Source: Peptostreptococcaceae bacterium
Lineage (GTDB): Bacteria; Bacillota; Clostridia; Peptostreptococcales; Filifactoraceae
Direction: 5' to 3'
Assembly (NCBI GenBank): GCA_030532705.1
Contig: JAUNKR010000006.1
Coordinates: 1 to 34,259 of the forward strand
Length of the DNA stretch: 34,259 nucleotides
Made by a program: the position numbers and the translations under genes. Under the pieces are notes generated by a model. That model saw only the letters and a program-made list of their open reading frames with translations. It did no database searches and was not told the DNA's origin. Positions 241 through 33,666 of the stretch are shown piece by piece. The stretch's first letter is position 1. Each line of letters begins with the position of its first letter.

Positions 241-3200
241 TTATTGTCTTTTCTTTGAAGCATATCCTCTTAGCAAAATGATCGCTAATAAGAACACCGC
301 CCCAAAGAGGAAATTTTGTGGTTCAGTATCTAAAATCTGAAGACCGGTTTTCGGTGCATTACCGATATTTTTTGGTTTGTTTTTTGACTCTGCCTTTGGC
401 GTTGTATTGTCATCAATCTTTTCGATATCTTGCTTGCTCGGATCCTTCGGATCGAACTGAGTATTCGGCATCTGATTCGGCGGGATCGTTGTTGGCGGAT
501 CTGTCGGCGGGATTGTTCCCGGAGGTCTTACAGGGGATGGTGGGGATGGTGGTCCACCGATACCGCCGACTTCAGGTTTTGCTGTATTCGTAAATGTTAG
601 ATATACGGTTGTGTTTGCAACGATCGTTTTGCTTTGAGCAATATTTGGCGTAACATCATAATCTTCGTACGATCTTTCTGTGATTTTTACTTCAAGATCT
701 TTTGGAAGATTTTGGATCGTTAGCTTCTCATCATGCTTCAATGTGAATTTTCCGTTGCTTGCCAGGTCGATCTCGGTGGATATCCCTTTAGCATCTGTTT
801 TGATCGCTTTATATTTATTGCCATCTGAGAATACTGCTGTAAATTCAAAATCTTTATTCAGATCTGCAGTAGCTCCTTCGACCAGTTTTTTGATCTCCAC
901 ATTACCGACGGCATTAGCAATTTTTGTATTGGTGAATGCAGCTTTGACAACATCATCCTTCACAATCGTACTGACGATACTTGGAGTGTTTACCGTATAT
1001 CCTGCCATCGTTGCTGCAAGTTCCGTTACCGTAACTTTTAGATTTTCCGGCAGATTATGAAGTGTAGCTATTTCTCCATGCTTTAATTCGAAGATATCGC
1101 CGCTCGCAACCTCGATAACGATTGGTGTAGATCCTGTTTTACCTTTAGAAAGCGTATATTTTTCTGTGCCTTCAAAGAATATTTGGAATGCAAACGGTTT
1201 GTCCAGCTCTGCATTTGCACCTTCGACTTTTTTAGAGATCTCAAGTTTTCCTTTTCCCGGCTGTGGAGCAGGCGGTGTACTGCCACCTCCCGGCGGAACG
1301 GTTTTTTGTTTTGTATTGCTGAAGGTCATTTCCAGTTCCGCATCGACCTTGACATCCAGTTGAGCTTTTTTGCCTGAAACGGTTTTTATTGCGTCTGCTG
1401 CATCCTTCGTCTCGATCTTCGCATCGTATCCGTCCGCATTCTCTTCGATCGCAACGCTTACACCATGCGGGATACTTTCGATCAATGCATATTCGCCATG
1501 CTTTAGTTTGAAGCTTTCGCCGGATCTGATCGATTTGGTCTCGCCGGCAGTATTGTTATTGTAGATCACGTAATTATATGACTCCGGAAGTGATGTCACG
1601 CCGTTGTCGATGATCGTCATCGTGAACTCAAACTCTTTATCCTGATCTACCGGTATATCTGTAAGGATCTTGGTTACCTTAAGTGATCCGGCATAGGTCG
1701 CATTTCTCTTGTTCGGGAAAGTGACTTTAGTGATCTTTGTTGTGCTATCCGGCTTGACGTCGATGTCGTCCGTGATAGGAGTTGGTCCGGTGATCTCGAC
1801 GATACCTTGACCGTTTGAGTCACGTGTCACTTTAACATCCAGAGCAGTGTCGATTTTTTCAAAGCCCTTTGGTGCGCTGACTTCTTTTAATTGGTATTCT
1901 CCGACAGGCAATCCTGTGAAGATGATCTTACCATTAGCATCTGTGCTTAGGACTTCAAAAGGATTGTCTGCAAAATTATTTCCTATTTTTGCGAACAGAC
2001 CGAATTTTGCGCCCTTCAATTTATTACTTGCATCACTTGAATCGACCTTGAGGATCTCTAAGGTCGCATTCTTTCCGAGCGTTGCTTTCACAGTGGCATC
2101 GGTGAGGACAAATTCTATGCTTGCTACTGCAGAAGCAGCTACATTAGTCGATGTTCCTGAGAAGAGGCCCGCCTCATTTTTGAATTTCTCGCCGGCATTG
2201 CCTTTTACAAGGTAAGTTTTATACTCGATAGAGTAAGACTTGACGGTACCGTCCTGTTCGATCGGAACATTAAATATCAATTTGTTATCAGCTAAGTTGT
2301 ACTCAATACGATCCTTAAGCGTTGCGGTTACATCAGCACCATCTTTGTAAACGCCGTTTTCAAAGATCCTTTCCTTGATGATCACGGCGCCATCTTCCAG
2401 TTTTCCTTCCAAATCAACAGGAAGCTTTAGGTTATCCGGTAATTGGTCTTCAACTTTGATCTTGGTATTTGGATCCTGTTTGATATTATAGGAATGGTAG
2501 TTGAGTTTCCATTGCAATGCACCATCATCTGTAATATCGTATTCACCATTGGCTTTTTTCTTGATGGATTTTCCCAGAACGGAACTCTTGATAGTATCTT
2601 CAAGTTTCACTGTTTGATCGATCCCACTCTCCGTTTTGAAGTTTACGGTATTTGTTACCGGTGTAGAATCGTTCTGCGCAAAAATCTCTTTTGCTTTTGC
2701 ATCGGTCGGAGTTGCTTTTACCAGAATGACTGCTGCACGATCAAGACTGTCAAAAGTAAAGGAGATCTTTTTATCGCCCGCTTTTCCATTCACTGTCAAA
2801 CCCATTTGCTGAGCAGGATCGGTGACTTCTGTAGCTTTGGAAACGCCTTTTCCGGAGTCATCTGTCAAAGTGACGCTTCGATTTCCGTCACCATCTGAGA
2901 TCATTCCGGATTTGAAGAGTTTGAATGGTTTTCCGTCATCAAAATTCTTGAATTCCCATCCATCCGGCAAAGTATCGGAGATCGTTACCTTGCCATGTGT
3001 TTTCAAAGTGTTGTCTGTGTCGAAGTATTGTCTTGTCTTCCAATCATGTCCAAAAGCATTGATGCTTAGACGATAGATGATCTCCTTCTTATCATAGTCA
3101 AAAGCTTGATCTTTCGCTTCAGTGACCATTCCGGAAGCCATCGTAACATTCTTTTCAAGATTTGCAGACGCTCCACGCTTTAGAAATTGTTTGTGCAATA

Positions 3201-5247
3201 GTCCGTTCTTACGATCAGCTTTTGCAGTCGCAGAATCCAGCTTTGTGTTTCCGGAGTACAGTGTGGATGAATTGGTGATCTTATCTGCGTCATTTGAGCT
3301 GCTGTCATTTTTATCTTGCAGTTTTTTAGAGACGATCTCTGTTTGGATCTTGAAAGTCTCTCTGTTTGTGCCTGTAATACCTTTTACAACAAGCAGTTGT
3401 CCGACGACCTTACCATCTTGGTAAAGATCGATAATGTCATCCCGTAGAACATTGCTATTTCCCGGAGTGGTTCTTTGGAATGTGTCTTTTATAAATCGTT
3501 GCCCAAGACCTTGTAGCTTTTCATTGCCTTTTCCATATCCTTCAAGGAATCCGGCAGGAAGAGTCTTGCCCGACTCAACTGTAAGTTTAGTTACATCCAG
3601 CGGAGTATCCCCGAAGGTCACCATATTGAAGAATTGAAGATCAGGGATTTCCTTCGTTCTTTCCTCTACAGTAATGTTCCATTCAATATTGCCATTTGGG
3701 TAGATATGCTTGGAATAGGATTCTTGGATCGAGTTGAACTTAAAGTCTGCATATAATCGATTAGACTGTATAGGACCATTGAGTCCATCCCATGTTGCAC
3801 TTGCTTGATTTTCATATCTTACTGTAGCGATATCGCTGCCTGTTACATTTTGTGGTGCTCCTGCGATCTCGGTAATGATCTTTAATCGGATATGATCATT
3901 TAGAGGATTCGGTAGTTCGTATTTTCCGCCGGCAGGTTCTGCATTCCAAGAACGCGCTAAAGTACCGTTCGCTTTCTTCCATTCGCTGCCATTGGGAACT
4001 TCGATATAAGCCTCAACAAATTTTTGCTTCGATGCAGGATCTGTCGGCATTAGATTGTCGGAGTCTTTTGCTTTCAGCATACCATCCAACAGGACATCGG
4101 TGATCGCAGCATTATTTAAGAGAGCTTTGTCTTTGTTGATCTCGATCGTCCAGATCGCCTGTCGCTTGATACTTCCGTCACTCATCAGAGTACTTAAGAT
4201 CGATCCGCCTTTTTTGATCCACTGGGATGTCAGGTCGATCGCTTTATTATTCGCTTCATTCGCTTCACCGCTTGCTACTTTATTAGCACCTTGATATAGA
4301 TCCGCAGTGTTCGAGATCTTTTTGTTGCCAAAGAAGTCTTCTTTGCTTACATGAGTCTGGAACGTTACGGTGATCGAACTTCTCGTCTGTCCCTGATCCA
4401 GCGCATCAGCTTGCTCAAAAGTATATTCGAGATTAGGAGCTGTAGCTGAAGGAGTAACCGCTCTGTTATTCACTTTTAGAGAGCCATCAACATATTTGCC
4501 GACATTGCTAAGATCATCGACAAATTTGTGAGCTTCCAATGAGATCGGCTGTTTTGAAGCATTGTCTTTTCCGGACAATACAACGGTCCATTCGATCTTA
4601 GGCTCGGCGGTTGTTCGGTCGATCAGCTTGCCGGATTTTTCTACACTGTAATTATTGTTTTGAACACCCGGCATGAGTTTGAACTCGGTGCCCCAAAAAT
4701 CAACGTTTTTTCCTGCGGCAGGAACATCCCATGCATGACCGCCATAAAGCATCCATCCGGTGATCTCAAACTTGATATCATCCGCTTTGTCAAAAACTGC
4801 TTTGACCTCATCGGATTGTTCGAAGGCGATCTTTGCAACGATATTGCCGCCTTCATTAAACAGCTTCAATGTTCCGATCTTTAGGTCACTTCCTTCGATA
4901 TGGATATCCAGCTCTTTCGGAGCATCGAGCTTAAATCCCTCTGCCACTGTAAAAGTTAAGGTATCTTCAATCAAAGGTACTGTAGGATCATCAAGCGGCA
5001 GGGTGAATTTGAGCCCAAATTCGATCCGCTTATCCGCTGTGATCTCTTCGCCATTGACCACCGCATTCGTGGCCCCTTGAACTTTTAATGAAGATTCAAC
5101 ATTCTTCATCAGCTGTTTTGTGGCATCATGATCATAATCCTTTCCGGCAGCATAAGCACCGGTCGGAATGAAGATGTTGAGCACAAGAAATGCCGCCATC
5201 AAAAAGCTCAAGAGATGTCTGTTTCTTTTACTTTGTTTTTTTGACAT
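241..5247 (-). CDS. Large sortase-anchored surface adhesin with SpaA/Cna-B-like domains
   Basis: A 1668-residue secreted, wall-anchored protein. It opens with a basic N-terminus and hydrophobic signal peptide ending near AYAA (about residue 34). Residues about 40-1050 hold repeated beta-rich adhesin-type modules. Related strings, such as ISNTADLYQG near 312 and ITNSSTLYSG near 658, recur and suggest module duplication. A SpaA/Cna-B domain follows at about 1061-1150, with LEILKVD and LKEVSAPKGF placing the Lys and Glu expected for an isopeptide bond. Three related C-terminal domains begin near 1185, 1331 and 1448 and share the strings LKHGE or LKHDE and TFSNT or TFTNT. A proline-rich wall-spanning linker covers about 1558-1606. 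The sorting signal is NAPKTG at 1630-1635, then a hydrophobic helix and the tail SKKRQ. The ATG start has AGAAAGGAA just upstream. Its ligand is unknown. It stands alone, divergent from the next gene. Confidence 0.9.
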   Translation of the reverse strand: MSKKQSKRNRHLLSFLMAAFLVLNIFIPTGAYAAGKDYDHDATKQLMKNVESSLKVQGATNAVVNGEEITADKRIEFGLKFTLPLDDPTVPLIEDTLTFTVAEGFKLDAPKELDIHIEGSDLKIGTLKLFNEGGNIVAKIAFEQSDEVKAVFDKADDIKFEITGWMLYGGHAWDVPAAGKNVDFWGTEFKLMPGVQNNNYSVEKSGKLIDRTTAEPKIEWTVVLSGKDNASKQPISLEAHKFVDDLSNVGKYVDGSLKVNNRAVTPSATAPNLEYTFEQADALDQGQTRSSITVTFQTHVSKEDFFGNKKISNTADLYQGANKVASGEANEANNKAIDLTSQWIKKGGSILSTLMSDGSIKRQAIWTIEINKDKALLNNAAITDVLLDGMLKAKDSDNLMPTDPASKQKFVEAYIEVPNGSEWKKANGTLARSWNAEPAGGKYELPNPLNDHIRLKIITEIAGAPQNVTGSDIATVRYENQASATWDGLNGPIQSNRLYADFKFNSIQESYSKHIYPNGNIEWNITVEERTKEIPDLQFFNMVTFGDTPLDVTKLTVESGKTLPAGFLEGYGKGNEKLQGLGQRFIKDTFQRTTPGNSNVLRDDIIDLYQDGKVVGQLLVVKGITGTNRETFKIQTEIVSKKLQDKNDSSSNDADKITNSSTLYSGNTKLDSATAKADRKNGLLHKQFLKRGASANLEKNVTMASGMVTEAKDQAFDYDKKEIIYRLSINAFGHDWKTRQYFDTDNTLKTHGKVTISDTLPDGWEFKNFDDGKPFKLFKSGMISDGDGNRSVTLTDDSGKGVSKATEVTDPAQQMGLTVNGKAGDKKISFTFDSLDRAAVILVKATPTDAKAKEIFAQNDSTPVTNTVNFKTESGIDQTVKLEDTIKSSVLGKSIKKKANGEYDITDDGALQWKLNYHSYNIKQDPNTKIKVEDQLPDNLKLPVDLEGKLEDGAVIIKERIFENGVYKDGADVTATLKDRIEYNLADNKLIFNVPIEQDGTVKSYSIEYKTYLVKGNAGEKFKNEAGLFSGTSTNVAASAVASIEFVLTDATVKATLGKNATLEILKVDSSDASNKLKGAKFGLFAKIGNNFADNPFEVLSTDANGKIIFTGLPVGEYQLKEVSAPKGFEKIDTALDVKVTRDSNGQGIVEITGPTPITDDIDVKPDSTTKITKVTFPNKRNATYAGSLKVTKILTDIPVDQDKEFEFTMTIIDNGVTSLPESYNYVIYNNNTAGETKSIRSGESFKLKHGEYALIESIPHGVSVAIEENADGYDAKIETKDAADAIKTVSGKKAQLDVKVDAELEMTFSNTKQKTVPPGGGSTPPAPQPGKGKLEISKKVEGANAELDKPFAFQIFFEGTEKYTLSKGKTGSTPIVIEVASGDIFELKHGEIATLHNLPENLKVTVTELAATMAGYTVNTPSIVSTIVKDDVVKAAFTNTKIANAVGNVEIKKLVEGATADLNKDFEFTAVFSDGNKYKAIKTDAKGISTEIDLASNGKFTLKHDEKLTIQNLPKDLEVKITERSYEDYDVTPNIAQSKTIVANTTVYLTFTNTAKPEVGGIGGPPSPPSPVRPPGTIPPTDPPTTIPPNQMPNTQFDPKDPSKQDIEKIDDNTTPKAESKNKPKNIGNAPKTGLQILDTEPQNFLFGAVFLLAIILLRGYASKKRQ

Positions 5248-7682: not shown

Positions 7683-7724
7683 CATGCAGGAAGGATGTTT
7701 GAGACCAAGCATCCTTTTTGCATG
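7683..7724 (+). terminator. Long hairpin, probable terminator after the 5755 gene
   Basis: CATGCAGGAAGGATG (7683-7697) pairs along its whole length with CATCCTTTTTGCATG (7710-7724), including two G-U pairs valid only on the plus strand. The T run lies inside the descending arm, so a shorter stem (AAGGATG/CATCCTT) followed by T residues would act as the terminator. It is about 120 bases past the stop. Positions 7561-7682 hold only small inverted repeats. Confidence 0.6.
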
Positions 7725-7746
7725 CAAAAAAGATTTGATACGATAC

Positions 7747-7965
7747 CTATTCAAACTTGTCAACGATTTGTATTTTGAATAATCGTTCTTTGCTTCCGGC
7801 CTTGTAGGAAGCGGCGGCAGCAGGCACCGGATATACGATCTCTCGTTGGTCGCTGTATCCCGCCAAGTCATGCATGCGACCTACCGGAGATCTTCATCGC
7901 TTTGCTTGAAAATCGGGTAAGGTCTGCAACCCTTCCGTTTAGCCGCTCCACCGGAACGCAACGCA
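7747..7965 (+). repeat. Hairpin-rich intergenic element, copy A
   Basis: About 220 bases that align with 33253-33474 over most of their length. Shared blocks include TATTTTGAATAA, GGATATAC, CATGCATG and ACCTACCGGAGAT. The element folds into several hairpins: AACGATT/AATCGTT, GCTTCC/GGAAGC, ATAC/GTAT, GAT-TTCA/TGAA-ATC and GGT/ACC. In-frame stops and a 2-base length difference from copy B argue against a protein-coding origin. It lies just beyond a plus-strand terminator, in a gap between converging genes. The strand given is by layout only, because the wobble evidence is mixed. It could be a structured RNA, a small non-autonomous mobile repeat or a DNA-level cruciform element. Confidence 0.65.
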
Positions 7966-7980
7966 TGATGTTATCTACGG

Positions 7981-8199
7981 TTTATTAGGCTTTGGTAGGC
8001 TTTGAGATTAGGCTTTGGCATGAAAAGCCGCTCTTTCGTTCGAGGGATCTGTTTGGTTGGCGGCGCATCGATCCGCTGTGTTAGCCTCCCGGTGTGTTAG
8101 CTTCCTGTTGTGTGACAGCATTAGAGCTGCTCACCGGCGGAGCATGTTTGCGATTTTGCGGATCGGCGGCGATCTTCCTCTGAGAGTGTTTTCCAAAAC
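7981..8199. other. Gene-free stretch with short direct repeats
   Basis: Three copies of TAGGCTTTG occur at 7986, 7996 and 8009. The last forms a hairpin GGCTTT/AAAGCC (8011-8029). GTGTTAGC followed by CTCC or TTCC occurs twice near 8080-8110. GCTC/GAGC pairs flank ACCGGCG near 8130. The segment is richer in GC than the other gaps. I see no credible gene in it and cannot assign a role. Confidence 0.4.
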
Positions 8200-33172: not shown

Positions 33173-33218
33173 AAAGAAATCAGCACAGCTGCCAACAGTC
33201 GCGCGGATTTCTTTTTTT
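33173..33218 (+). terminator. Terminator of the 31687 gene
   Basis: AAAGAAATC (33173-33181) pairs with GATTTCTTT (33206-33214), followed by TTTT. The 24-base loop is GC-rich. It starts about 30 bases past the stop. Confidence 0.8.
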
Positions 33219-33252
33219 ACTTATTATTTCTCCCTTCATATCATACTTAAGC

Positions 33253-33474
33253 CTATTAAAACAAAGAGTTGTCAACTATTTATATTTTGAATAACTGTTC
33301 TTTGTTTTTCACTTTGTAGGGAACGGTGGCAGTAGGTTACGGATATACAATTTCCTTGCAGTCATTGTATATCTCGTCAACCCATGCATGGAACCTACCG
33401 GAGATTTTTATCGCTACGCTCAAAAATCAGGTTAGGTTCGTAACCCCACCGTTCCGCCGTTCCATCGGAACGGG
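33253..33474 (+). repeat. Hairpin-rich intergenic element, copy B
   Basis: The second copy of the element at 7747-7965. It conserves the block order and hairpin positions while many bases differ. Clear stems are GATATACAAT/ATTGTATATC (a perfect 10 bp), GATTTTT/AAAAATC, GGTT/AACC and CCGTTCC/GGAACGG. In the second hairpin the arms are GTTTTT and GGGAAC, against GCTTCC and GGAAGC in copy A, so pairing is kept by compensating and wobble changes. Like copy A, it starts about 30 bases past a plus-strand terminator. A 64-codon open frame across it is not conserved in copy A. The following AT-rich stretch to about 33660 shows no gene and no clear promoter. Confidence 0.65.
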
Positions 33475-33666
33475 AAAAGAATATTTTTTCTGCAGCATAT
33501 TAGGTATTAGTATAAGATAAAATTCGCTGAGCATTGATATAACAAGTTTGTAATAGTGATAGGGAAAAGTTTCCTGTTTTCAATGCATATAAAAAAATAT
33601 GGAACAAAAAATATAAAAATAACGGTTAAGGTTTTTGGGCGAACGGACGATATACAAGATGTAAAC

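Follow-up and report, generated by a model that had tools for sequence, protein, structure and literature searches.

Insertion sequences (IS) of the IS630 family follow a rule of TA duplication. Non-autonomous elements of the PATE and IS200/IS605 type have two hairpins within about 100 bp, a fixed 5' target and polymorphic sites. The repeat unit of pneumococcus (RUP) is 107 bp long, inserts at TA-containing sites and has ends in common with IS630-type insertion sequences (PMC2229807). HK022 put, EAR and Tn916 canT are cis-acting antitermination RNAs of phages and ICEs, which act on downstream terminators (PMC11658703).

We report the analysis of two hairpin-rich intergenic segments, copies A and B, within a stretch of 34,259 nucleotides (the window, meaning the whole of the DNA analysed) from a Peptostreptococcaceae MAG. 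Our best explanation, to which we assign a probability of roughly 0.8, is that A and B are old copies of a non-autonomous transposon (MITE), most likely mobilised by an IS630-like DDE transposase and carrying as cargo a cassette that is dispersed independently elsewhere. Like RUP and the Correia/NEMIS elements, which are IS630-linked or TA-type MITEs, this element is small, intergenic, high-copy and hairpin-forming (PMC2229807); it differs from RUP in its 3-bp TNA duplication, in its terminal inverted repeat (TIR) TACTAATACC and in the existence of a long form with a separately dispersed cassette. The features of the window are as follows, where R1 is a covariance model built from copies of the window's genus and R2 one built from prophage and other-family copies only, without that genus.

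7693..7719, plus strand: terminator-like hairpin and T-run directly upstream of copy A (from the sequence)
7739..7997, plus strand: MITE copy A, long form (profile match 7742-7997, 237.7 bits; ends from the alignment)
7817..7928, minus strand: cassette of copy A, two hairpins, not in short-form MITEs (long/short junction; R1 match G000:C31:7798-7967)
33177..33219, plus strand: inverted repeat resembling a terminator, with T-run, upstream of copy B (from the sequence)
33244..33512, plus strand: MITE copy B, long form (profile match 33244-33512, 274.6 bits; row L076)
33319..33328, plus strand: 5' arm of the outer palindrome of copy B, GGGAACGGTG (from the sequence; helix 1 of the 49-pair structure)
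33329..33442, minus strand: cassette of copy B, two hairpins (R2 match 33342-33439, minus)

The initial annotation had described a duplicated element of about 220 bases at 7747-7965 and 33253-33474. Both segments are real and align over that length, with 75% identity over the element in a DNA search of the own genome, but their limits were drawn too narrowly, since each copy is a long form of some 260-270 bp with terminal inverted repeats that had gone unnoticed. The ends of copy A, TACGATACC...GGCTTTGGTA, are degenerate, with TGA on the left (7736-7738) and no matching duplication on the right, while copy B ends in TACTTAAGCC...GGTATTAGTA and is flanked by TCA and TAA, a TNA pair with one mismatch. 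An exact target-site duplication (TSD) is absent from both copies, and it is from the state of these flanks that we take A and B to be old. Copy B contains no ORF of 80 aa or more, and its cassette is held in the tip of the outer palindrome, whose partner arm lies at about 33446-33456. Elsewhere in the window, the contig start (1-60) falls inside another multi-copy element with the end ATACTGATACCTAATAGATTCTATACC, which is found at the ends of contigs C42 and C73 too, and positions 241-5247 of the minus strand encode a 1668-aa protein with SpaA and three DUF7601 domains, probably a surface adhesin.

That A and B are copies of a MITE is near certain. In place of the two copies first noted there are at least 15 places matching the element in the own MAG, 67 matching stretches at no fewer than 30 loci in the congener JAUNKE01 ('Peptostreptococcaceae bacterium S30M_Sa_15') and dozens of copies across the genus; in 37 genomes from beyond the genus, searched directly at the DNA level, the element had no match. 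The termini are TACTAATACC...GGTATTAGTA, bordered by 3-bp TNA target duplications, and the alignment of full-length copies runs from TACTAATACCYATTA to TAATAGGTATTAGTA. Three genomes together contain 54 elements with such ends on both sides, and 33 of these have identical 3-bp flanks, almost always T-N-A (shuffled mean 10.9, with none of 20,000 shuffles as high); T-N-A was counted 45 and 44 times in the flanks of these 54 elements, and 4-bp flank matches are absent from them. About 11 copies of the window's own family have an exact TSD. A 2-bp TA duplication, considered for the MITE ends, was dropped because flanks and empty sites showed TNA. For the window's own family no empty site was found between congeners, their flanks being too diverged. 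Of 41 copies, 39 lie outside ORFs, and in tandem gaps copies are oriented with the genes nine times and against them seven times, which is no preference.

The plus-strand terminator that had been pointed out upstream is there for A and B, some 20-25 bp away, but it is not a property of the family, the other copies of which occupy tandem, convergent and divergent intergenic gaps. This distribution also bears on the reading of the segments as a riboswitch-like cis-regulatory RNA of the flanking window genes, duplicated together with its operons. Covariation is present and the fold of copy B is stable, as that reading would have it, but the occurrence of dozens of copies, in every geometry, next to genes that are unrelated, the TNA duplications and a sense strand that is antisense to the upstream genes in the window contradict it and leave it scarcely credible. 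Very unlikely, too, is a REP/BIME element (GTAG head plus hairpin within the outer palindrome) moved by a RAYT transposase: there is a TTGTAGGGAACGG head with a palindrome, and TIR-less copies with constant limits do occur, but the TIR-bearing copies have IS630-like ends and TNA duplications, and we rejected a REP/RAYT origin for want of Y1_Tnp in three genomes of the genus, one of them 95% complete.

The transposase most likely to have served these ends is found in the partner insertion sequences. At eight contig ends of the own MAG the MITE TIR leads into a start codon and the N-terminus of an IS630-like protein, and IS left ends with the same TIR lie at contig ends in the congener as well, as expected of a multi-copy insertion sequence that was assembled away. 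The own-genome transposase is known from its N-terminus only, since the autonomous IS is broken at contig ends, and its family assignment is based on about 40 aa together with the relatives. Intact relatives with TACTA ends, reading frames with HTH plus DDE_3 and, in five of six cases from the genus and family, exact TNA duplications are present in three genomes (G001, G004 and G008). The likeness to the IS630 family consists in these HTH and DDE_3 frames and in matching ends within the same bacterial family; the difference is that the relatives show a 3-bp TNA, not TA, and the MITE itself likewise has TNA where an IS630-derived MITE would be expected to duplicate the TA dinucleotide. Within one IS630-like transposase gene of the congener (L147, G002:C96) sits an IS30-like element (rve, HTH_38).

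A sister MITE family of about 135 bp with the same TACTAAAACC ends is found in G001 (e.g. L218, L222, L225-L228), and ends of this type also lie at contig ends in the own MAG and the congener (L155, L236-L248). Its near-identical ends break many contigs, so the family is probably recent and high-copy. Its paralogous empty sites (L225 against L130, and L228 against L226/L227) obey the same 3-bp rule, as in occupied AATTTGA/TACTAAA..TTAGTA/TGAACG, where '/' marks the limits of the element, compared with empty CATTTGAACG. From the shared ends, the TNA duplications and the DDE_3 relatives, A and B are placed among MITEs of an IS630-like group whose duplication, at 3 bp, is unusual. Of the three candidates in the initial annotation, a new structured RNA, a MITE-like repeat and cruciform DNA, the MITE is borne out by copy number, TIRs, TNA duplications, matching IS ends and the empty sites of the sister family.

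Most copies in the own MAG are of a short form, about 150 bp long, from which exactly the hairpin-rich middle is missing. The junction of long and short forms, GGTG/ACCCC, is identical in the own MAG and the congener, and the piece absent from short forms measures 112-114 nt (7817-7928 in A and 33329-33442 in B). In the own MAG this cassette occurs also without the MITE, singly and in tandem arrays with the same unit limits (L165:7135-7400, beside a tRNA-Ser gene, and L328:3790-4073; period 115-117 bp). Several copies in L165, L328, L329 and L330 have a common 5' flank like GAGTGAAGAGTTCGA.

Homology of the cassette to units outside the genus holds in both directions. R1 matches sequences in another family within the order, weakly but clearly, and R2, applied to the window, has a single match, copy B on the minus strand, at a modest 24.2 bits and E 0.0013 (the E-values of both models are rough, their calibration having been short); copy A is found by the genus model only. 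Over 833 kb of the own MAG all nine R2 matches are cassette copies, copy B being counted twice through overlapping loci. Between genus and other-family copies the surrounding stems are entirely changed, but GACCTAACCC, a hairpin, GGTAGGTCA and the loop CGACCGAAGGGAG are common to both; a bulged A after GACCTA and the loop CGACCnAAGGGAG, both unpaired, are common to genus, other family and prophages. We regard it as well supported, by sequence comparison, that the MITE middle is one unit, on the minus strand, of an independent two-hairpin cassette of about 110 nt, and its homology and spread likewise. In a covariance-model search no Rfam family matches the element or the cassette, and a literature search with one cassette motif returned human-gene papers only.

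Outside the genus, viral contigs scanned with an exact pattern yielded 25 cassette stretches, the majority from prophages of isolates; BLAST added five records of Streptococcus phages, about 80% identical, in which the unit lies in unannotated gaps ahead of the terminase gene. Additional matches to a relaxed prophage pattern were set aside, as they look like chance and lie inside genes; the plasmids searched gave only weak, chance-like matches and no cassette. Four other-family cassettes come immediately after the terminator of a T-box leader, itself an Rfam family. Among the 39 cassettes from prophages and the other family, not all independent as several come from related prophages, the orientation is that of the next gene wherever neighbours are callable; 17 directly follow a T-run and about a dozen start exactly at an upstream TAA (TAA/TGACC), and in most a gene starts 80-190 nt further on, usually behind a Shine-Dalgarno-like sequence. 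At one prophage site (L303, L307, L309, L325) hairpin 2 is predicted to pair CACCCCAT with ATGGAGGTG, hiding the Shine-Dalgarno sequence of the next gene. The antitermination RNAs offer an analogy, though no homology, in being stem-loops near terminators in operons of phages and mobile elements; the cassette follows terminators instead of preceding them (PMC11658703).

At two sites, GGTAGGTAATGAAATATC and TACTAATG, some prophages carry the cassette and others, about 90% or more identical around the site, do not, from which it follows that the cassette moves, or is exchanged, as a unit. Such precise polymorphic sites, a 5' flank that is nearly always TTA or TAA and a bulged base in hairpin 1 are what one would expect if the cassette were an IS200/IS605-type mobile element with two end hairpins, sitting 3' of a TTTA/TTAA/CTAA-like target without clear duplication, which a Y1 transposase moves elsewhere and which is a fossil in this genus. 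With PATE and its kind it shares the two hairpins, the length of about 100 bp, the fixed 5' target and the polymorphic sites. Unlike them it lies in gene sense, a placement unexpected for a plain transposon; Y1_Tnp (PF01797) is absent from the three genomes of the genus, and no full-length element with cassette ends was seen. We consider this origin doubtful, if a serious possibility.

The hairpins themselves keep their order, as first described. A structure of 49 pairs is paired in 91.4% of cells over 30 genus copies, compared with 33-51% after sliding the arms by 1-3 columns; two-sided changes are seen in 19 pairs against 8.4 in shuffles, counts that are inflated by relatedness; independent compensatory events are fewer than the cells suggest, since many changes belong to two or three subtypes. 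Against shuffles copy B folds well (z -6.7) and copy A weakly (z -1.7). Evidence from wobble pairs had been called mixed and is so, with 55 G-T against 64 A-C cells over all copies and no strand-specific bias. In L218:11978-12163 (G001) the cassette hairpin as a whole is turned round compared with the other copies. This points to palindrome-directed rearrangement of DNA and, together with the GU/AC symmetry, fits palindrome correction at the DNA level as well as it fits RNA selection.

On these grounds, namely the missing GU/AC asymmetry, the loop inverted in L218 and the lack of preference in gene orientation, one might see an ordinary foldback MITE, in which DNA repair or template switching keeps the palindromic filler symmetrical and the likeness to prophage and T-box sequences is coincidental. 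Reciprocal detection by the models with zero false positives in 833 kb, unpaired motifs common to genus, other family and prophages, and the recurrence of identical unit limits in this MAG's tandem arrays make this unlikely.

The case for a minus-strand RNA comes from gene-sense placement elsewhere, from fold stability and from the conserved G-A/G-A positions. The minus-strand fold is slightly more stable in 17 of 20 prophage and 15 of 19 MITE copies, a weak point in related sequences. The unpaired G-A/G-A positions (GACCnnnGGGA) are conserved in 28-30 of the 30 genus copies, and a tandem G-A motif, six times in sense and never in antisense among non-redundant copies, is suggestive, although its strict form missed the MITE copies. 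We put the odds that the free cassette has an RNA function at about even; a function within the MITE is unlikely. Of the new structured RNA that had been suspected, what survives is a MITE middle homologous to an independent, uncatalogued two-hairpin unit found in gene sense elsewhere, and not an intergenic RNA of two copies. It had been expected that many copies with TSDs would mark a mobile repeat, and few copies with covariation an RNA; the family has many copies with duplications and significant covariation as well.

Returning to the MITE that carries a cassette as cargo, the course of events may have been the following. The IS630-like DDE transposase is encoded by insertion sequences that share the ends of the MITE; most likely it recognises TACTAATACC and would mobilise the element in trans, inserting it at TNA with duplication of 3 bp; the ends, duplications and partner insertion sequences are observed. 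The long form bears one cassette unit, homologous to the free one, on the minus strand in the tip of its internal palindrome. The free cassette is dispersed horizontally, in gene sense and mostly right after terminators or stops of prophage and T-box operons, and because it is dispersed, and close relatives differ in having it at a given site, the MITE probably picked it up. An ancestral short MITE would then have captured the cassette and amplified it with itself, where it is probably passive cargo. We infer insertion rather than loss; the alternative is that a single early loss of the cassette, instead of its capture, separates long and short forms. For the host operon, the free cassette may most likely serve as an RNA structure between cistrons or in the leader.

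We also propose, tentatively and at somewhat less than even odds, that the cassette is a structured RNA of a new, horizontally mobile class, namely a two-hairpin unit of about 80-115 nt (UGACCUAAC...GUAGGUCA plus a second hairpin), which inserts right behind terminators or stops of Bacillota phage and T-box operons, affects the expression or stability of the next gene, and which in this genus an IS630-type MITE has captured and amplified. The work joins two fields that are usually kept apart, those of MITEs and of structured leader RNAs. The IS630-like elements, with their 3-bp TNA duplications, are a testable departure from the TA rule. If the cassette is a functional RNA, it would be one that jumps between operons, phages and transposons, and its fixed place behind terminators and stop codons would allow simple reporter tests.
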